The notes below the pieces were generated by a model. It saw only the letters and a program-made list of their open reading frames with translations. It searched no databases and had not been told where the DNA came from. 64,000 bases of DNA from Peptococcaceae bacterium BICA1-7 (lineage in GTDB: Bacteria; Bacillota; Desulfotomaculia; Desulfotomaculales; Desulfocucumaceae), in the NCBI GenBank assembly GCA_000802095.1, contig JUEB01000009.1, positions 62,001-126,000 of the forward strand, in the 5' to 3' direction. The position numbers were made by a program, and so were the translations under genes. Position 1 is the first letter of the stretch; each line of letters starts with the position of its first letter. Positions 18,123-40,833 of this stretch are shown here, in pieces.

Positions 18123-19400
18123 CTAAGCTACTTCCGGGTCGAACTTCTGACCTTCATCCGTCCAGGTATCATCATCCCAAACCATTTGGTCTACCCGGTC
18201 AAAGATGCAGGGTTTGAACTCCAGTAAGTCCTTGGCGTCGAACATATCGAACATCGAAAGTTGGCCCTTGCGTTTGGCTATCTGAATATTGCGGATCTCC
18301 TCAGCCATGCCCCGCCTCATGTAATACATCCACTGTTTTGGATGAGTTCGCCGTAGCATTGCCATGTGGTTATTGGGGTAAAGCAGGTCGGTACCGCAGC
18401 CCATACATCCGTTGCGCTTAATCTTGTGGTATGTTCCGCTCCCATCAGTCCATCCCATGTCATACAAGGGTGAATAGGGAACATTGAAGCGTTTTATGTA
18501 GGCCCAAATGTCATCATCCGTCCAAATGGATAACGGGTTACAGTGCCAGAATGGATCTTTCCCAAGATGGTCACGATGGGATTTAAAGAGGTACCCACGG
18601 GTAACGAAGTTTGTTTGCCGCTGTCTGCTTTCGGCTGCCATAAGTCCCTTGAAAATCACATCGACATCCAGCTCGACCTGCAGGCGCTCACTTGGTTCTT
18701 TTTTAAGTATGTCGCAGCAGGCCTGACTGAACTTCACCTGCTTTAAAAGCTCGTAATAAGCAAGTAGCTTTTGATTTTCGCTTTGGCTCTCGGAGAACCG
18801 CAAGAAACAGTCAATGTTAATCCGATGAGCTTTAAGTTTTGACGCTGCCTTTCCCATCAGCGGCCAGCCATATTGATCAATACACCACCAGTATGACTTG
18901 CGGGAGCCTGCCGGCCAGGTTAATTTTTCATGTTCAAACTTTTCCTTCAGGTGATCAGGGCATGCCGCTTCCAGTGTGGCAGTACTTTTAAGTTTCCCAT
19001 CTGGCTTTAAAATCTCATGGATACGGCCCGTGTCGATCATATATTGCAGTACTCTCTGTTGTGCCACATATTTCAGTCCATCTACTTCCGTGCGGCCTGG
19101 TGTGGCTTCATAGAAATTGCCATTGCCCCAATCCTGCCTGATTTGCCGCGAGAACTGAACGCACTCTGGATATTCCACTCCGGTATTGCCGTATATTACA
19201 ACCATGCGCTGTGCTTGCTCTGGGAAGTGGGTCCGTATCAGGTGCCAGAGTACGGTACTGTCTTTGCCTGCACTGAAGGCCAGGGCTGAACGATGGCGGC
19301 AAACATCAAAGGCTGACTTAATTGCATCTACAGCGGTGGAGATTTTATAGTCCAAGTCACGGGCCTGCTCTTTCATTAGGTCCTTGAAACTAATAAACAT
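18123..19400 (-). CDS. PAPS reductase-family PP-loop ATPase (DndC-like)
   Basis: A 425-residue protein. The PP-loop is ALAFSAGKDSTVLWHL near residue 42, followed by VVIYGNTGVEYPECVQF, a typical CysH-family core. Later parts have WHCNPLSIWTDDDIWAYIKR and a Cys pair NGCMGCGTDLLYP that could hold a metal or disulphide. The family adenylates a substrate; in phages the role is unclear, perhaps DNA phosphorothioation-like modification or sulphur metabolism (inference). The ATG is only a few bases after the terminator of structured element A, so its expression may depend on that element. Confidence 0.85.
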   Translation of the reverse strand: MFISFKDLMKEQARDLDYKISTAVDAIKSAFDVCRHRSALAFSAGKDSTVLWHLIRTHFPEQAQRMVVIYGNTGVEYPECVQFSRQIRQDWGNGNFYEATPGRTEVDGLKYVAQQRVLQYMIDTGRIHEILKPDGKLKSTATLEAACPDHLKEKFEHEKLTWPAGSRKSYWWCIDQYGWPLMGKAASKLKAHRINIDCFLRFSESQSENQKLLAYYELLKQVKFSQACCDILKKEPSERLQVELDVDVIFKGLMAAESRQRQTNFVTRGYLFKSHRDHLGKDPFWHCNPLSIWTDDDIWAYIKRFNVPYSPLYDMGWTDGSGTYHKIKRNGCMGCGTDLLYPNNHMAMLRRTHPKQWMYYMRRGMAEEIRNIQIAKRKGQLSMFDMFDAKDLLEFKPCIFDRVDQMVWDDDTWTDEGQKFDPEVA

Positions 19401-19417: not shown

Positions 19418-19523
19418 AAAAACCGGCCACACCATTAATTTGGCGGGCCGGTACTCACCCCGGTAGGTGACGGAGGTCTTTGCCTCCTGTTCTTATTCTC
19501 TTGGCCTCAGAGGAAATTGGTTT
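19418..19523 (-). ncRNA. structured RNA element A: two hairpins, possible pseudoknot, competing terminator
   Basis: Minus-strand order: hairpin 1 GGAGG-C-AAA-GA-CCTCC (19487-19472); hairpin 2 TCACC-TACCGG-GGTGA (19470-19455); then GTACCGGCC, which is the 5' arm of a terminator (ACCGGCC...GGCCGGT-TTTTG, 19452-19418). The hairpin-2 loop CCGG can pair with the CCGG of the terminator arm, so pseudoknot and terminator exclude each other. It starts right after the DUF1643 stop codon and ends before the PAPS-reductase-like gene. Copy B shares the same layout. Function unknown; an attenuator or riboswitch is possible. Confidence 0.65.
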
Positions 19524-20054
19524 TTAGGTGGCACCGGGAATCCCCCTCGGTATCTGGTCCCATGTTCTCCTGTATAATTCCGGCTTGGTATCCCCTCTCA
19601 CATACAGGGGATGCCGAGGGTGGCCATCTTTGGTTAGCTCCAGGCACATAATTTCAGTAGCCCCACTATCTATAAGTAGCCTTATAACCTGCTTATCCCT
19701 GCCCTGGTGTTTCCCGTGAGTCCCCCAGGCTGCAATAATGTAATTGGACCTACGGACAGCAGCCAAAATATATCTGTCATTCTCGGGTCCTACCGGGTCA
19801 GGCGCCCGCTTTAATTCCTGCGGGAAGGTTGTCCGGTACCCAAAAAGGTTAACAACTTCCAAGGAGCCATATCCCCACGCCCGGGCAAACCCTATGCAGC
19901 GCCGCAGGGTCGGATCGTCCTTCTCGGCATCCGCCGTGCTGCCGTTTAGCATTACAAAAAGTACTCGGGGCTTTTCCGAATCCCATTCACGAACCAGAGA
20001 GTATCTGTATTGGCAGGTTTCGTCTATGACTGCCGAGGAAACAATACTACTCAT
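19524..20054 (-). CDS. DUF1643-family protein
   Basis: 176 residues. DUF1643 landmarks are visible: CQYRYSLVREWDSEKPRVLF, VMLNGSTADAEKDDPTLRRC, FARAWGYGSLEVVNLFGYRT, and a later AAWGTHGKHQGRDKQV. The family is found in phages and defence or modification islands; no activity is established. It overlaps the dCMP deaminase gene by 4 bases. Its last codons (GGT GCC ACC TAA) are shared with the end of the small gene at 32,026, because structured element copies begin there. Confidence 0.88.
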   Translation of the reverse strand: MSSIVSSAVIDETCQYRYSLVREWDSEKPRVLFVMLNGSTADAEKDDPTLRRCIGFARAWGYGSLEVVNLFGYRTTFPQELKRAPDPVGPENDRYILAAVRRSNYIIAAWGTHGKHQGRDKQVIRLLIDSGATEIMCLELTKDGHPRHPLYVRGDTKPELYRRTWDQIPRGIPGAT

Positions 20055-21211: not shown

Positions 21212-21472
21212 CTACTCCTTCAAAAATTCTGCCTTCAGCAACTTGGGCATTTTCTTTTCACTGTTGCTATCATCTTCGTTACCATACTCAAGTTGGATAG
21301 TTCTCGCCTTAAGCACCAGCTGGCCGTTGGCAATAATCTGTGACGCCAGGCCGGTAATAGCCTTGGCCCTCGCCATTTCTTCCTTCAGTTTTTCGTCCTT
21401 CAGATCCTCATCGCCCAAGCGTTCCAGTTGAGCGAACAGGTGGTTGTTCAGGTCACCAAGCGTATTTTTCAT
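21212..21472 (-). CDS. small helical phage protein, unknown
   Basis: Start chosen at ATG 21472 after GAGGAG. 86 residues: MKNTLGDLNNHLFAQLERLG, then long charged helices and AKAITGLASQIIANGQLVLK. Proteins of this kind are common in Firmicutes prophage replication modules and are annotated as hypothetical. The GDLNNHLF pattern is a recurring one. Function unknown. Confidence 0.65.
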   Translation of the reverse strand: MKNTLGDLNNHLFAQLERLGDEDLKDEKLKEEMARAKAITGLASQIIANGQLVLKARTIQLEYGNEDDSNSEKKMPKLLKAEFLKE

Positions 21473-21520
21473 TATTCCCACTCCTCATTTATTGTAGAGT
21501 GTTTTTGTTTTGTGCATCAA

Positions 21521-23086: not shown

Positions 23087-23710
23087 TCAGACAGTTCCCA
23101 ATTTCAGGGGGCCTGGTAGCCCTTCACCGGGACCGGTTCCGGCAGATGCCACCGGGCTATATTGTGTACTGTATTGTGCCATATCTATGTCACTCTCAAT
23201 TTCATTCCCCCAAGCATTCCACCCCGGGACCCTCCGCCTGGCAAAAAGCTCAATCCGCTTTCGGTTCTCCATGGTCCTGGCCGTGGCTGTTTCAATGATC
23301 TCCCTGAATATTTCGGGCTTCTCGGAGTGTGCCAGGACTGGGTGTTCAACGAAGTTAGGCAACTGGCACCTAAAGGCTTTAATTTTGCCGCGGACTCCGA
23401 AAAGTAATTCCTCGATTTCACCCCGGAACCAGTACCCCAGGCCCAGGCGTCCAGTTTTGCGCCAGGTAATTTTGGTTTTGTAATTGAAGCCCCAGGCCTG
23501 CATCACCTGAAGGCCTTCTTTCAGCATCGGAACGGTGGCCCATAAGAACAGTACTGCATTCCTGTCTGATATTTCCGGGACCGGCAGCCGGCAGATCTCC
23601 TCCACCGACATTACCGTGTACTTCTGGGCGGCCCCGCTTTTGTGGGAGCCGCCAGTTCGTTGGTTATCGTATTTCCAGCCGGGATCAGCATAGAGAACAT
23701 TATATTTCAC
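23087..23710 (-). CDS. MT-A70-family DNA N6-adenine methyltransferase, DPGW variant
   Basis: 207 residues. The catalytic motif IV is YADPGWKYDNQRTGG, where the usual sequence is DPPW. Further family segments are AVLFLWATVPMLKEGLQVMQ, WGFNYKTKITWRKTG, LGLGYWFRGEIEELLFG, PVLAHSEKPEIFREII and RKRIELFARR. The family methylates adenine N6 in DNA; in prophages it may protect against restriction. The Pro-to-Gly change next to the catalytic Asp is noted below. It overlaps the gene at 23707 by 4 bases. Confidence 0.9.
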   Translation of the reverse strand: MKYNVLYADPGWKYDNQRTGGSHKSGAAQKYTVMSVEEICRLPVPEISDRNAVLFLWATVPMLKEGLQVMQAWGFNYKTKITWRKTGRLGLGYWFRGEIEELLFGVRGKIKAFRCQLPNFVEHPVLAHSEKPEIFREIIETATARTMENRKRIELFARRRVPGWNAWGNEIESDIDMAQYSTQYSPVASAGTGPGEGLPGPLKLGTV

Positions 23711-31319: not shown

Positions 31320-31531
31320 GTTTTTATCCTCCCTTTTTGTTTTTGGTTTTTCCCGCCGGCCCACCAGCAAGGCTCACAGAACCAGCCCACTTTAACGAGT
31401 TTGATTCTGTTGGGGCCTTTTTCTGGCGCTGGCGCATAAATGCACTTTCTCAGGTATGTTCCGGATACATCGCACCCACAATAGGCGCAGGCTGTACCCG
31501 GTGGAGCGTTAGCCGTGTTTAATGCTTTCAT
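31313..31531 (-). CDS. Cys-rich small protein
   Basis: 72 residues, ATG at 31531 after GGAG. CAYCGCDVSGTYLRKC and GWFCEPCWWAGGKNQKQKGR: two Cys pairs in zinc-finger spacing with a basic tail. It overlaps the neighbours by 7 and 23 bases. Confidence 0.6.
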   Translation of the reverse strand: MKALNTANAPPGTACAYCGCDVSGTYLRKCIYAPAPEKGPNRIKLVKVGWFCEPCWWAGGKNQKQKGRIKTC

Positions 31532-31793
31532 GGTTTCTCCTGCAAATCGGGCAGTATTGACTTGCCTTTTTCATATTCTTAAGGCGCCGTTCAAAGTTTC
31601 TGTCGCCCTCCGGCCAGGTTCGGGCCAACTCAAAGTCTATGCCGGCCTCCTTGATGACTTTCATCAGCTTAGCGCCAGTACCTGACCGGTGATGTTTTAT
31701 TCTGGCTTCAAGTTCCTCCTGGCCGCCGTCAACAAAGCCGATATAGTGACGTGCATGCTGGTAATTTTTATTGAAGTGCAGGAGGTAAACCAA
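31509..31793 (-). CDS. GIY-YIG-like nuclease
   Basis: 94 residues from TTG at 31793 after AAGGAG. The GIY-YIG-type core is VYLLHFNKNYQHARHYIGFV (first and second strands), then ARIKHHRSGTGAKLMKVI with the conserved Arg and an FERRLKNMKKASQYC end (Glu in place). The pattern is Y...YIG, R, E. It may be a free-standing homing or repair nuclease. A CPICRRNHESIKHG tail adds zinc-type Cys. Confidence 0.8.
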   Translation of the reverse strand: MVYLLHFNKNYQHARHYIGFVDGGQEELEARIKHHRSGTGAKLMKVIKEAGIDFELARTWPEGDRNFERRLKNMKKASQYCPICRRNHESIKHG

Positions 31794-31896: not shown

Positions 31897-31906
31897 TTAA
31901 GGGTGT

Positions 31907-32025
31907 AAAAAAGGACACCCCCTGATTTACTCAGGAAGTGCCCTACTCACCGGGTCACGGGTGACGGAGGTCAAAGCCTCCCATTCGATATTCACTTTTC
32001 CCTCGGACGCTTGGGGAACTGCGGC
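31907..32025 (-). ncRNA. structured RNA element B: second copy of the hairpin-pseudoknot-terminator element
   Basis: Minus-strand order: hairpin 1 GGAGG-C-TTT-GA-CCTCC (31981-31966); hairpin 2 TCACC-CGTGACCC-GGTGA (31964-31947); then AGTAGGGCAC, the 5' arm of a terminator (GGGCAC...GTGTCC-TTTTTT with inner CCTGA/TCAGG, 31943-31907). Loop GTG-A-CCC can pair with arm GGG-CAC with one bulge, again excluding the terminator. It starts at the stop codon of the zinc-ribbon gene at 32,026. Sequences that differ from copy A keep the pairing in both hairpins and the pseudoknot. Confidence 0.65.
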
Positions 32026-32145
32026 TTAGGTGGCACCGGAATCACCACCGTCCGGTATTTCGGTCCCACAGTAAGGGCAGATCCAGGGGATAGCTCCGGC
32101 GCTGTATGAAGTCTTACTGCAATTCGGGCAGACTCTGCTTTGCAT
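32026..32145 (-). CDS. 39-residue double-CxxC zinc-ribbon protein
   Basis: Minus-strand ATG at 32145, with AAAGGAG 8 bases upstream; stop TAA at 32026-32028. Sequence begins MQSRVCPNCSKTSYSAGAIP and continues WICPYCGTEIPDGGDSGAT. CPNC and CPYC pairs make a zinc ribbon. Its last codons GGT GCC ACC TAA match the end of the DUF1643 gene because structured element B begins there. A different, longer frame over the same bases is not the gene. Confidence 0.78.
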   Translation of the reverse strand: MQSRVCPNCSKTSYSAGAIPWICPYCGTEIPDGGDSGAT

Positions 32146-34667: not shown

Positions 34668-35234
34668 GTGCATTTAGGTGATCGCATAAAAAAGGTAAGG
34701 GAAGGCCTAAATTTTACGCAGAAGGAATTGGCTTTAAAGGCTAACATATCTCGCTCATACTTAGCAGATATAGAGAATAACAGGTATAACCCCAGTTTGG
34801 ACACGCTTACTAAAATTGCAGGAGCGCTCGATGTTTCACCTGATCGCTTAACCGGTGAAACAGCCCGTAGTCTAATAGAGGACAGGCTCGAAGAACTGAG
34901 CATGCCTCTATCCGAATTAGCTCATAAAGCAGAAGTTCCGTTGGCTTTTCTTACTAATCTTGATAGTGTCATACCGGACGAGGGTGATTACGATTATGTA
35001 ACTAAAATCGCTAAAGCCCTTGGAGTTCAACCTGGTAGCCTACGCGCAGCCCTTGCGCGTCAGGAACCCCCGATCTATGATGGCCCCAAATCCAACCCTG
35101 AGGAAGACTTTGCGATGGTCTCAGAGGCTTCTATGGATTATGCCTGTGGCGACGATTGGACGGAAGCTGAACTGAAAGAGATAGAAAGATTCAAAGATTT
35201 CCTGCGCATGAAGCGAAGCCAGAAAAAAGATTAG
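34668..35234 (+). CDS. prophage repressor, XRE family with two HTH domains
   Basis: 188 residues from GTG at 34668 after GAGAGGG. Residues 5-60 are a complete XRE HTH (LNFTQKELALKANISRSYLA, DIENNRYNPSLDTLTKI). A second, more degenerate HTH lies at about 70-125 (ELSMPLSELAHKAEVPLAFL). The C-terminus ends in a charged helix (EIERFKDFLRMKRSQKKD). It lacks a LexA-like peptidase domain, so induction is likely not by self-cleavage. It is divergent from the Cro-like gene. Confidence 0.88.
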   Translation: MHLGDRIKKVREGLNFTQKELALKANISRSYLADIENNRYNPSLDTLTKIAGALDVSPDRLTGETARSLIEDRLEELSMPLSELAHKAEVPLAFLTNLDSVIPDEGDYDYVTKIAKALGVQPGSLRAALARQEPPIYDGPKSNPEEDFAMVSEASMDYACGDDWTEAELKEIERFKDFLRMKRSQKKD

Positions 35235-35244
35235 AGGTGAAAAC

Positions 35245-36465
35245 TTGGCATCTATCGAACAGAAAGACGATGCTGGCCTAAAGTGGCTATTGGTAGTCTC
35301 TGATGGATTCAATGGTAAAAAGAGGGTTAAAAGGAAAAAGATTTTTAGTGGAACTGAGAAACAGGCATTAAAAGCGGCAGTCCTTTTTGAAGATGAAGTG
35401 AAGAACGGTAAATACTGCCCAGCCAGTAAGGACTGCAAACTTTCTGAATTTGTGGATATGTGGATCAAGGATTATGGAGAAAAGAATCTGGCGCCTAAAA
35501 CCTTGGCCCGGTACAAGGAAATGCTGGACAGCAGGATTCTGCCCACTATCGGTCAACTGAAATTGGACAAGCTTAAGCCGATGGTTATTAACCGCCTCAT
35601 AAATGACCTGGCTGACATGCCACGCAAAGATAAAAAGGAAGGTAAGCTTTCAGCCCAAACCATCAGGCATCATTACCGTTGCCTCTCTGCTATACTCCAG
35701 GATGCCGTAGACTGGGACGTAATTAAGGAAAACCCCTGTTCGCGCGTCACGCCTCCCAAGGTTAAAAAGGCCAAAGTAAAGGTCTATGATGAAGAGGAAA
35801 CCAGTGCCTTTTTAACCGCCCTGGAGACGGCACCCCTGAAACACCGGACGCTTATATGGCTTGAGATAGCCACAGGCCTTCGTGAAGGGGAAATTATGGG
35901 CTTGGAGTGGATTGACATAGATTTTAATAATAATAGCCTTAAGGTTGAGAGAGCCAGCCAATATTTACCGGGGAAAGGTGTATTTACAAAAGACCCTAAA
36001 ACGGAAGAGAGCCAGCGCACCTTGGCGCTGCCTAAAAATGTGATGGACTTGCTCAAGCAGCACAAAGCAAAGCTGGCTGAAAAAAAACTTAAGCTGGGCG
36101 ATTTTAAAAACGGGGGGTTGTGGAAAGGATCGGATCGGCTTTTCGTGACCTGGGACGGACGTCCTGGGCACCCCACCTGGCCGGGGAAGTGGCTGGCAAA
36201 ATTTCTGAAAGACAAAGAACTGCCGCACTGCTCTTTTCATTCCCTGCGACACCTCAATGCTACTATGTCTATTGCGGCCGGCGTCCCGCTTAAAAACGTA
36301 TCGGCTCGGCTGGGACATAGCGATATAGGGACCACTGCAAACATCTATGCCGAAGCCCTGAAAAGCGTGGACCGGGAGGCCGCTGAAAAAATGGGTAAGC
36401 TACTTGAGAATAAGCCGGAAGAAAAGGACGGCAGAGCCAAGAAAGTGAAACGCATACGCCGATGA
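35245..36465 (+). CDS. tyrosine-family site-specific integrase
   Basis: 406 residues from TTG at 35245 after AGAGGTG. The N-terminal arm-binding domain (EQKDDAGLKWLLVV...) and SAM-like core domain (SEFVDMWIKDYGEKNLAPKT) precede the catalytic domain. Catalytic residues are visible: Arg in IATGLREGEIMGLEW, His-x-x-Arg in SFHSLRHLNATMSI, His in RLGHSDIGTTANIYAEAL with the Tyr nucleophile. It integrates the phage at the tRNA-Trp. The attachment fragment follows its stop codon by 130 bases. Confidence 0.95.
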   Translation: MASIEQKDDAGLKWLLVVSDGFNGKKRVKRKKIFSGTEKQALKAAVLFEDEVKNGKYCPASKDCKLSEFVDMWIKDYGEKNLAPKTLARYKEMLDSRILPTIGQLKLDKLKPMVINRLINDLADMPRKDKKEGKLSAQTIRHHYRCLSAILQDAVDWDVIKENPCSRVTPPKVKKAKVKVYDEEETSAFLTALETAPLKHRTLIWLEIATGLREGEIMGLEWIDIDFNNNSLKVERASQYLPGKGVFTKDPKTEESQRTLALPKNVMDLLKQHKAKLAEKKLKLGDFKNGGLWKGSDRLFVTWDGRPGHPTWPGKWLAKFLKDKELPHCSFHSLRHLNATMSIAAGVPLKNVSARLGHSDIGTTANIYAEALKSVDREAAEKMGKLLENKPEEKDGRAKKVKRIRR

Positions 36466-38930: not shown

Positions 38931-40178
38931 CTATCCATTTTCAGAAACAACCCTGGCCTTTTGTTTCGCTCTGCTTTTCTCTATTACCGGAGGCCAGCCG
39001 AACAGGCGGGCCAGCTTGGAGTATATCCATTTGGACTCTTTTGTCATGAGAGGCCCCAGTACAGCCAGAATTAACACATAAAGGGCGGCAAAGGACTGCA
39101 GGATGGGCAGCAGTGCCCCGGCCCAGGCTATGCCGGCCAGAATGATGGAGAACTCACCTCTGGAGATAATGGTCAGCCCTATATTTGTGGAGGCTCTGTG
39201 GGAATATCCGGATATTCGCCCGGATATCATGCCGGATACAAAATTGCCGACTATTGTCAGCAGCACGGCTATTATCGCCGGCCACACCGCGCCGGGCAGA
39301 GACAGCGGATCTATGCTCAGGCCGAAGCTGAAAAAGAACAGGGCGCCGAAAAAATCCCTGAACGGCACCACCAGATGCTCTATCCTTTCGATATGCTCTG
39401 TTTCGGCCAGGACAAGCCCCACCAGCAATGCCCCAATGGCCTCGGCAACGTGTATGGATTCAGAGAATCCTGCCACCAGGATCAAGGAGGCAAATAAGGC
39501 CAGCATAAATACCTCATCCGAGGGAATATCAAGAAGACGATTTAATAAAGAGATTAATTTTCGGCCTAAAAGCAATACCCCCAGCATGAAACCCAAAGCC
39601 ACCAGTGCAGACTGCAAAGCCATTACCGGCGAGGTAGATCCGGTTAAAACCAGTCCGGAAACTATAGACAGATATATGGCTACAAAAACATCCTGAAACA
39701 TCATTAAGCCCAGGATCATTTCTGTTTCAGGCCTGACAGCCCTTTTAAGCTCTACCAGCACCTTTGCCACTATGGCGCTGGAGGATATAGTCATAATTCC
39801 GGCAACTACTAAAATCTCTTTAAAGGGCCACCCCATTAGAAGTGGAAACAGTAGCCCTATTGTAAAGTTGATGGCCATATAAATTAGCCCGGTCTTCATA
39901 ATGGCGCGGCGCGCCTTTAACAGCCTTCCCACCGAGAACTCCAGGCCCAGGTAAAACATAAGGAAAAGAACACCCAGCCGGCCCATAAAGTCTATCAGTG
40001 GAGCACTTTCTATAAACCTTAAATCGATCATCCAAAATTGAGGCATGTGCGGCCCCACGGCCAGTCCGGCCAAAATCAAAAGAGGGACTATGGAAAACCG
40101 CAGCCGGGAGGCCAGAAGCCCGGCAATGGCTATAACGAAAATAGCCAGCCCAATTTCAAAAAGAATATTTGGCTCCAT
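38931..40178 (-). CDS. khtU: KhtU/KefB-type potassium:proton antiporter (CPA2)
   Basis: 415 residues with about 12 membrane segments. CPA2 landmarks: EIGLAIFVIAIAGLLASRLR, GLAVGPHMPQFWMI, FLMFYLGLEFSVGRLLKARR, GIMTISSSAIVAKVLVELKR and FFFSFGLSIDPLSL. It exports K+ (or ammonium) in exchange for protons. The KhtT-like subunit gene is directly upstream and adjacent (stop and start meet), the B. subtilis KhtTU pair. A separate N-terminal KhtS was not found. Confidence 0.88.
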   Translation of the reverse strand: MEPNILFEIGLAIFVIAIAGLLASRLRFSIVPLLILAGLAVGPHMPQFWMIDLRFIESAPLIDFMGRLGVLFLMFYLGLEFSVGRLLKARRAIMKTGLIYMAINFTIGLLFPLLMGWPFKEILVVAGIMTISSSAIVAKVLVELKRAVRPETEMILGLMMFQDVFVAIYLSIVSGLVLTGSTSPVMALQSALVALGFMLGVLLLGRKLISLLNRLLDIPSDEVFMLALFASLILVAGFSESIHVAEAIGALLVGLVLAETEHIERIEHLVVPFRDFFGALFFFSFGLSIDPLSLPGAVWPAIIAVLLTIVGNFVSGMISGRISGYSHRASTNIGLTIISRGEFSIILAGIAWAGALLPILQSFAALYVLILAVLGPLMTKESKWIYSKLARLFGWPPVIEKSRAKQKARVVSENG

Positions 40179-40676
40179 TTAGTCTATACTCCCATTGTTT
40201 ATGAGTCGCTTACAAGCCTTCACCTGTCCCCTTTCCCCTAAGACAACCAGAGTAGCCCCTTCATATACAAACTGGTCAGGACCAGGGTTTATAATTTTTT
40301 GATCCTTTTTAATAACAGCAATAATCATCGCCCCGGTAATTTTACGGATATGTAGTTCTCCTATTGTTTTCCCAATGGCCTTTGCCCCGGGCTCAATCTT
40401 GAACCATTCAATCTTCATCTCGTCAAAGGCCACATCCACTGACTCCAGTGCTTTGGGCATATAAACCATCCCTCCGAGAATAGCCCCCACACGGCGGGCC
40501 TCGGCATCATCAAGGGTAACCATGGATATGCTTTCATCCGGGTCATTATAGTCAAAATGGTGCATTTCACGCTTCCCATCGTCATGAACAATTATTACCA
40601 GCTTATCCCCGCTCCTGGAGTTAATCTGAAACTTCCTTCCTATTCCCGGAAGGTCCGATTCCCGAAATGTGCTCAT
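40179..40676 (-). CDS. khtT: KhtT-like regulatory subunit with TrkA-C domain
   Basis: Start chosen at ATG 40676 after AAGGAG, 165 residues, the size of B. subtilis KhtT. STFRESDLPGIGRKFQINSR at the N-terminus, then EWFKIEPGAKAIGKTIGELH and QFVYEGATLVVLGERGQVKA form an RCK-C (TrkA-C) domain. It binds nucleotides or ions to control KhtU. The downstream khtU gene begins at its stop codon. Confidence 0.88.
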   Translation of the reverse strand: MSTFRESDLPGIGRKFQINSRSGDKLVIIVHDDGKREMHHFDYNDPDESISMVTLDDAEARRVGAILGGMVYMPKALESVDVAFDEMKIEWFKIEPGAKAIGKTIGELHIRKITGAMIIAVIKKDQKIINPGPDQFVYEGATLVVLGERGQVKACKRLINNGSID

Positions 40677-40833
40677 TAATTCCATCTCCTTCACAATTAA
40701 ATTACAGGCGCTTAAATAGTATATTCATTATTAACCATTAGCACTAATATGGTATAGAATATGGCTTTTCACTCTCCTGCCGGGTACAATAATGTTAACT
40801 CCCTAAACGGCTCCAATAATAGAGGTGCTTTTA

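Follow-up and report, generated by a model that had tools for sequence, protein, structure and literature searches.

Attenuators of the trp and his type are built from a small leader ORF, alternative hairpins, and an intrinsic terminator. In the preQ1-I and fluoride riboswitches, a pseudoknot gives a compact pairing of a loop with downstream sequence, which is able to take the 5' arm of a terminator. Mobile attenuators, i.e., prophage or IS terminators used as 5' regulators, were described in 2010 (PMC2965389), and going by the parts of that article used here, they are the nearest published concept that was found for the element reported below. The HK022 putRNA is about 70 nt long and has two stem-loops with a G at the bifurcation, and put gives processive antitermination through the zinc-binding domain of the RNA polymerase β' subunit (PMC9378689). 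It is the closest in anatomy, but it is larger, and a link between loop and terminator is not described for it in the portion of the source used here (PMC9378689).

The element was found as two copies, A and B, in a 64,000-nt stretch of contig C9 (the window, i.e., the whole stretch analysed) of the 4.75-Mb genome of Peptococcaceae bacterium BICA1-7. The window contains a temperate prophage, the origin of which is clear from integrase, terminase, portal, and capsid genes. Both copies have a common order on the minus strand, i.e., small ORF, GAAYR box, hairpin P1 (GGAGG-6 nt-CCTCC), a single G, hairpin P2 (TCACC-loop-GGTGA), GTA, and a terminator with a T run. By direct reading, all parts of copy B are on the minus strand of 31907-32043, and the order, coordinates, and pairings (P1, P2, and terminator) given for it in the original prediction were right for that strand. 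The features of the two copies and of their surroundings are as follows.

32026..32145, minus: ORF upstream of B, 39 aa, zinc-ribbon-like (Pfam matches under the curated cut-offs)
31992..32036, minus: small ORF of B, GTG CCA CCT AAG ... TGA, 14 codons and stop, (M)PPKPQFPKRPREK
31966..31986, minus: GAAYR box and hairpin P1 of B (reading, folding, and fixed-register comparison)
31986-31982, minus: GAATG box of B (sequence reading)
31981-31977 and 31970-31966, minus: 5' arm GGAGG and 3' arm CCTCC of P1 of B
31965, minus: single G between P1 and P2 of B
31947..31964, minus: hairpin P2 of B, TCACC - CGTGACCC - GGTGA (reading and eight-copy comparison)
31964-31960, 31959-31952, and 31951-31947, minus: TCACC, loop CGTGACCC, and GGTGA of P2 of B
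31944..31946, minus: GTA linker of B, identical in 8/8 copies
31906..31943, minus: intrinsic terminator and T run of B, arm from 31943, 14 pairs counted, then the T run
31509..31793, minus: ORF downstream of B, 94 aa, no family match
19524..20054, minus: gene upstream of A, DUF1643 (PF07799, E 2.5e-51)
19534-19419, minus: copy A, whole
19493..19534, minus: small ORF of A, (M)PPKNQFPLRPRE, stop directly before the GAACA box
19419..19492, minus: GAACA, P1, G, P2 (loop TACCGG), GTA, and terminator (arm CCGGCC) of A
18123..19400, minus: gene downstream of A, PAPS reductase domain (PF01507, E 5.5e-24)
34668-35234, plus: CI-like HTH protein
35245-36465, plus: integrase

The minus-strand prophage genes run left and encode a Sak4-like protein, helicase, DNA primase, RusA, terminase, portal, protease, and capsid, and the single leftward run that they form takes in both B (32 kb) and A (19.5 kb). 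A sigma-70-like promoter match was found upstream of B (32218-32190, 9/12 positions). It was left out of the argument because the region holds five such matches, against a shuffled mean of 2.2 (sd 1.5). Three other features were observed in the window. An 89-aa ORF in the phage early region (21212-21481, minus) matches phrog_2044, annotated as RNA polymerase beta subunit, and has no Pfam match. The PAPS reductase-domain gene behind A also gives weak matches to the BrxP and DndC defence models. A gene pair of Na+/H+ exchanger and TrkA-C (38931-40694, minus) adjoins the prophage and is 71-74% identical to a pair at locus L138 (4938-6689, minus), about 3 kb from the copy in genome G105 listed below.

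Like the mobile attenuators, the element would be a terminator control unit of prophage or IS origin ahead of different genes. It differs from them, as they are presented in the parts of the article used, in lying inside prophage operons and in having a conserved leader ORF, two hairpins, and a loop that covaries with the terminator arm (PMC2965389); Pelotomaculum and Desulfotomaculum are not mentioned in the main text of that article. The likeness to the HK022 putRNA is one of working, i.e., a phage early operon, two adjacent hairpins, a junction G, and nascent RNA that would influence termination, whereas the present element has much shorter stems, carries a leader ORF, and adjoins a terminator whose arm is complementary to the P2 loop (compared with the part of PMC9378689 used). 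The small leader ORF, the alternative hairpins, and the intrinsic terminator are common to it and the trp/his leader-peptide attenuators (PMC2965389, in part). However, the element shows no single-codon run, its stop and frame are not conserved, and two copies are without the ORF; those attenuators stand ahead of biosynthesis genes, and the element is inside phage operons. Unlike the preQ1-I and fluoride riboswitches, it has no Rfam match, and a common metabolic theme is absent from the genes behind its copies.

Homologues were searched by DNA and pattern searches of relatives and by a covariance model, R1, of the P2-terminator core. Six further copies were found, one elsewhere in the own genome (C15:133830, hereafter C15) and five in Pelotomaculum and Desulfotomaculaceae genomes, which belong to the same order, i.e., G109 (contig C229), G091 (C82, cut by the contig end), G045 (C65), G107 (C201), and G105 (C82). 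The total is eight copies in six genomes among 113 genomes of the class, and the own genome has three units (A, B, and C15). In the own genome, A and B hold the only two exact occurrences of the 12-mer GGTGCCACCTAA. From phage-type genes nearby, prophage origin is likely for the copies C15, G107, G109, G091, and G045, and unclear for G105. In contig C15, locus L136 (1392-1694), in the region of the third copy, holds an ORF 79% identical over 87 aa to the PAPS reductase gene of the window, so the contig holds a relative of the window phage. A remnant was found in another contig of G109 (C223), with the ORF motif, GAACA, a short P1, and the terminator, and with P2 missing. At the loci L142 and L054 of that contig (about 12873-12990), ORFs match fragments of the MT-A70 gene from the intact copy, i.e., this is a decayed copy.

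No convincing copy was found outside the order, either in 398 genomes of the phylum with R1 or in the wider genome contigs. At E 5e-4, R1 matched three of the 398 genomes, i.e., the own genome, G022, and G409, and the matches in the last two look like chance. At E 0.05, 46/113 class genomes had a match, and besides the known copies, the weak loci inspected were a set of 22, minus L106 and L114 and with L121 slightly shifted, and a set of 8. The scan of wider genome contigs gave 84 stretches with 80 loci listed, four of them real and none beyond the order. Scans of viral contigs gave 3/46, 2/6, 3/9, 2/3, 1/3, and 3/6 real stretches; the real matches come from three loci on two contigs, which do not differ from the window (100% identity) in the available stretches, and the remaining stretches were judged by eye as chance. 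The phage collection had no match to B. With Rfam release 15 at the gathering threshold, the whole window gave no match, and at E up to 10 the six element loci searched gave five matches, none overlapping the element. A T-box was considered for GGTGGCACC on the plus strand and rejected; the sequence merely resembles one, and a Rfam match is absent. A published description of the element was not found in a literature search.

In fixed-register reading, the GAAYR, single-G, and GTA landmarks are in identical order in 8/8 copies. The pairing between the P2 loop and the terminator arm is hereafter called P3. Compensatory changes were found in it as well as in P1, P2, and the terminator. It had been proposed from A and B that changed bases keep the pairings, and the six further copies show such changes independently. 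In the alignment of eight copies, which was fitted to that very structure and thereby favours it, 98.7% of 79 cells of P2 and terminator are paired and 6/11 pairs are changed on both sides, and 0/500 shuffles were as high on every measure. For P2 with P3, which was not included in the covariance model used for alignment, 97.1% of 68 cells are paired and 4/9 pairs are changed on both sides (0/500 shuffles); G105 is gapped in the loop in this test and was read by script in the fixed register instead. When the partners were slid by 1-3 columns, the paired cells dropped from 97% to 24-53%. The MAFFT alignments A3 and A5, in which G107 and/or G105 are misaligned, are excluded from these counts.

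Base by base, pairs 1 and 2 of P1 are standard in 8/8 copies, pairs 3 and 4 in 7/8, and pair 5 in 6/8. Two-sided replacements were found at pairs 1, 3, 4, and 5 (GC-to-AT and AT-to-GC in C15, GC-to-CG in G105), and broken pairs in G091 (A x G) and at inner positions in C15, G107, and G105. Pairs 2-5 of P2 are standard in 8/8 copies and pair 1 in 7/8, broken in C15; G105 has a CG-to-GC replacement. The register of P3 is constant in 8/8 copies, i.e., the last loop bases with the first bases after GTA, and its pairs 1-3 are standard in all eight and pair 4 in seven. The exception is B, with A x C in the fourth loop-arm column and pairing continued past a bulged A, so the claim that its changed bases keep every pairing was nearly exact.

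Four types of loop and arm were found, i.e., CCGG/CCGG, CTGG/CCAG, CCC/GGG, and GGG/CCC. In B, the P2 loop GTGACCC is complementary to GGGCAC, the first bases of the terminator 5' arm, with a computed duplex of -7.8 kcal/mol. B and G105 are the most telling pair of copies for loop-arm covariation. Their inner terminator stem-loop is nearly the same, and the 5' arm (GGGCAC / CCCGGC), the 3' arm, and the P2 loop are all changed together. Among the 24 ways of assigning loops to arms over the four types, the one that gives each loop its own arm does best, in a test where the proportion cannot go below 0.042. Taken singly, own duplexes are not exceptional, since 28 to 406 of 2000 shuffles do as well, and a foreign arm suits some loops better, e.g., the G109 loop with the A arm (-12.4 vs. 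-6.2 with its own) and the G107 loop with the G109 arm (-9.0 vs. -5.3). Single-copy folding is weak evidence because the folds are just mildly better than shuffled sequence (B, z = -1.94, 10/200 as good; A, z = -2.50, 3/200). The comparison across eight homologous loci is strong evidence for the predicted pairings, in a sample where four copies (A, G109, G091, and G045) are closely alike.

The GTG in the 12-mer GGTGCCACCTAA starts a small conserved reading frame, (M)PPKPQFPKRP-, which overlaps the upstream stop; in B, this overlap was read directly. The element had been thought to include the final codons of the upstream gene. Instead, GTG-CCA-CCT starts a separate conserved ORF with a KPQF-x-KR motif, and GGTGCCACC is the start of this ORF rather than a common gene end as such. 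Over six copies, in 15 non-independent pairs, differences in synonymous codons are 72/186 (39%) in the ORF frame vs. 6/168 (4%) and 3/168 (2%) in the other frames. The ORF is present in 6/8 copies, i.e., (M)PPKPQFPKRP.. in B, (M)PPKNQFPLRP.. in A, and related frames in G109 and G091 (with ATG), G107, and C15, and is absent with its KPQF motif from G045 and G105. A degenerate DNA pattern for KPQF-x-KR gave six exact matches in the 113 genomes, 6/6 at the element or the remnant, whereas none of the 22 one-mismatch matches has the element; A was missed by the pattern because its motif differs. These codon and motif counts show a leader ORF that is constrained as coding sequence and goes together with the element. 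In G045, a near-perfect palindrome, ACGTGGTGAA-A-TTCACCACGT, is placed just upstream of the element (locus L092) where the KPQF motif would be, and the frame from DKK onward still resembles G109.

In A, the leader ORF ends immediately ahead of the GAACA box, and in B, 5 nt separate its stop from GAATG; elsewhere, the stop is within or beyond the terminator. The distance from motif to P1 varies from about 21 to >50 nt (by eye). G109 and G091 run through P1 and P2 in different frames, so it is not as protein that the hairpins are conserved, and a coding explanation for them was ruled out.

The unit was predicted to adjoin unrelated genes, and this was borne out by DUF1643 (A), the 39-aa zinc-ribbon-like ORF (B), MT-A70 (G109 and G091), and ORFs without a family. 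Upstream of G107, C15, and G045 are ORFs without family match or not scanned, and upstream of G105 is a topoisomerase 882 nt off. The arrangement that would have pointed to an old duplication, i.e., all homologues behind the same upstream gene, was looked for, and the upstream genes vary. The MT-A70 gene of the window itself (23087-23710) has no element behind it. Downstream are the PAPS reductase domain (A), the 94-aa ORF without family (B), DnaD-like/DnaB_2 (C15), replication initiation (G109), phage replication protein O (G045), Y2 transposase (G105), and the contig end (G091); in G107, two ORFs come first, then a DnaD-like loader and DnaB helicase. Replication-initiation genes are thus directly behind the element in C15, G109, and G045 and are the third gene in G107. 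The genes behind the copies have no common metabolic theme. No protein was common to all contexts in an all-against-all comparison of ORFs of at least 40 aa (window and seven loci, E 1e-5), by which a common trans-acting protein encoded near all copies was rejected. A homologous terminator unit of prophage or IS origin is found ahead of non-homologous genes, as in the mobile attenuators.

In the 45-nt core, A matches G109, G091, and G045 at 40/45 and B at 33/45, and the four alike copies have a mutual identity of 38-42 of 45. B is less similar to A than are copies from another genus, which argues that the module was exchanged among prophages and is not one old duplication. A recent duplication within the phage was rejected on the same identities (40/45 with G109 vs. 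33/45 with B). Phage mosaicism would explain the spread of the element.

The element is probably a portable transcription attenuator in prophage early operons of this bacterial order, a reading to which a rough probability of 0.55 is given. An attenuator is marked by a terminator ahead of a gene, a mutually exclusive arm pairing, and termination that changes with a signal, and the first two were found by computed and comparative evidence. The sequence shows the parts and their fixed order, covariation, a leader ORF that is coding, and neighbours that vary from copy to copy, and we infer that termination is conditional. RNA polymerase would make the small leader ORF, then P1, P2, and the 5' arm of the intrinsic terminator. 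P3, i.e., the end of the P2 loop with the terminator 5' arm, would form before the 3' arm exists. It would either replace P2 or join with it in a compact pseudoknot. If P3 is held, the terminator would be blocked and the downstream genes transcribed, i.e., P3 would be the read-through state; if P3 is lost, the terminator would form and transcription would stop. The choice may be set by the leader ORF, through translation or the nascent peptide, or by a factor that binds at the GAAYR, single-G, and GTA positions, which are nearly invariant.

P2 and P3 are crossing pairings. They could coexist as an H-type pseudoknot with 5-bp and 4-bp stems and connecting loops of 2 nt and 3 nt (CCGG type), or they could be mutually exclusive. 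The computed stability is -4.7 to -7.3 kcal/mol for P2 and -4.5 to -7.3 kcal/mol for P3 as a simple hairpin, and such similar values suit a switch. The terminator has -17.6 to -22.3 kcal/mol in six of the seven complete copies and is weak in G045 (-6.1). Because it far outweighs P3, read-through should need a stabilising influence, i.e., the leader ORF, a bound factor, or RNA polymerase.

It is rather unlikely that the element works instead as a put-like antiterminator, in which the P1-G-P2 RNA binds RNA polymerase so that terminators are ignored, the adjacent one first, and the loop-arm complementarity is secondary. The two stem-loops are joined at a single G in 8/8 copies, as in the HK022 putRNA (PMC9378689, in part), the setting is phage early operons with GAAYR, G, and GTA conserved, and B and A are two copies along one leftward gene run. 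However, the stems have 3-5 bp and the two-hairpin part 38-47 nt, against about 70 nt with long stems in put as given in that source, the loop-arm covariation would go unexplained by a plain put element, and there is no Rfam match.

Control by the leader peptide alone, i.e., fast, slow, or stalled translation of the proline- and lysine-rich ORF deciding the hairpins with no separate factor, is rather unlikely as well. The coding constraint on the ORF, its association with the element, the stops close to the box in A and B, and the frame that runs into the terminator in G107 and C15 would all suit it, but the ORF is missing in G045 and G105, and stop position, frame, and distance to P1 vary. 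A run of regulatory codons with a stop fixed relative to the hairpins, as in amino-acid leader peptides, was not found.

An antitermination module of peptide and RNA is considered quite improbable, i.e., that the nascent KPQF-x-KR peptide, on the ribosome trailing the polymerase, acts in cis by recognising GAAYR-P1-G-P2-GTA RNA and keeping the P2 loop paired with the arm, with loop and arm coevolving as a private pair. If it is true, the peptide-RNA module would be self-contained and placeable ahead of any gene.

There is a slim chance that the terminated short RNA is itself the product, i.e., that A and B make sRNAs of leader ORF and hairpins that act in trans, for example as prophage immunity RNAs. 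Immunity RNAs of the P4 and P1 type with short leader ORFs exist. A terminator closes each unit, the own genome has three units, and the Gifsy-1 IsrK locus yields a terminated sRNA and a read-through mRNA (PMC4825925, in part), but in all copies the P2 loop pairs in a fixed register with its own terminator arm. The slimmest chance is given to ordinary constitutive terminators behind a small gene, conserved by recent common ancestry only, which would fit just eight copies in one bacterial order and the mutual identity of A, G109, G091, and G045, but the covariation of P2 loop and arm and that of P1 and P2 are unneeded by a plain terminator.

As a probable attenuator, the element adds an RNA control family, absent from Rfam, to the prophages of an anaerobe order with little-studied phage regulation. 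It is a regulatory unit that appears to be exchanged independently of the flanking genes, while its loop and terminator arm change together. If conditional termination is true, the element would be a compact portable on/off part, and its natural covariation series marks the pairings worth testing.
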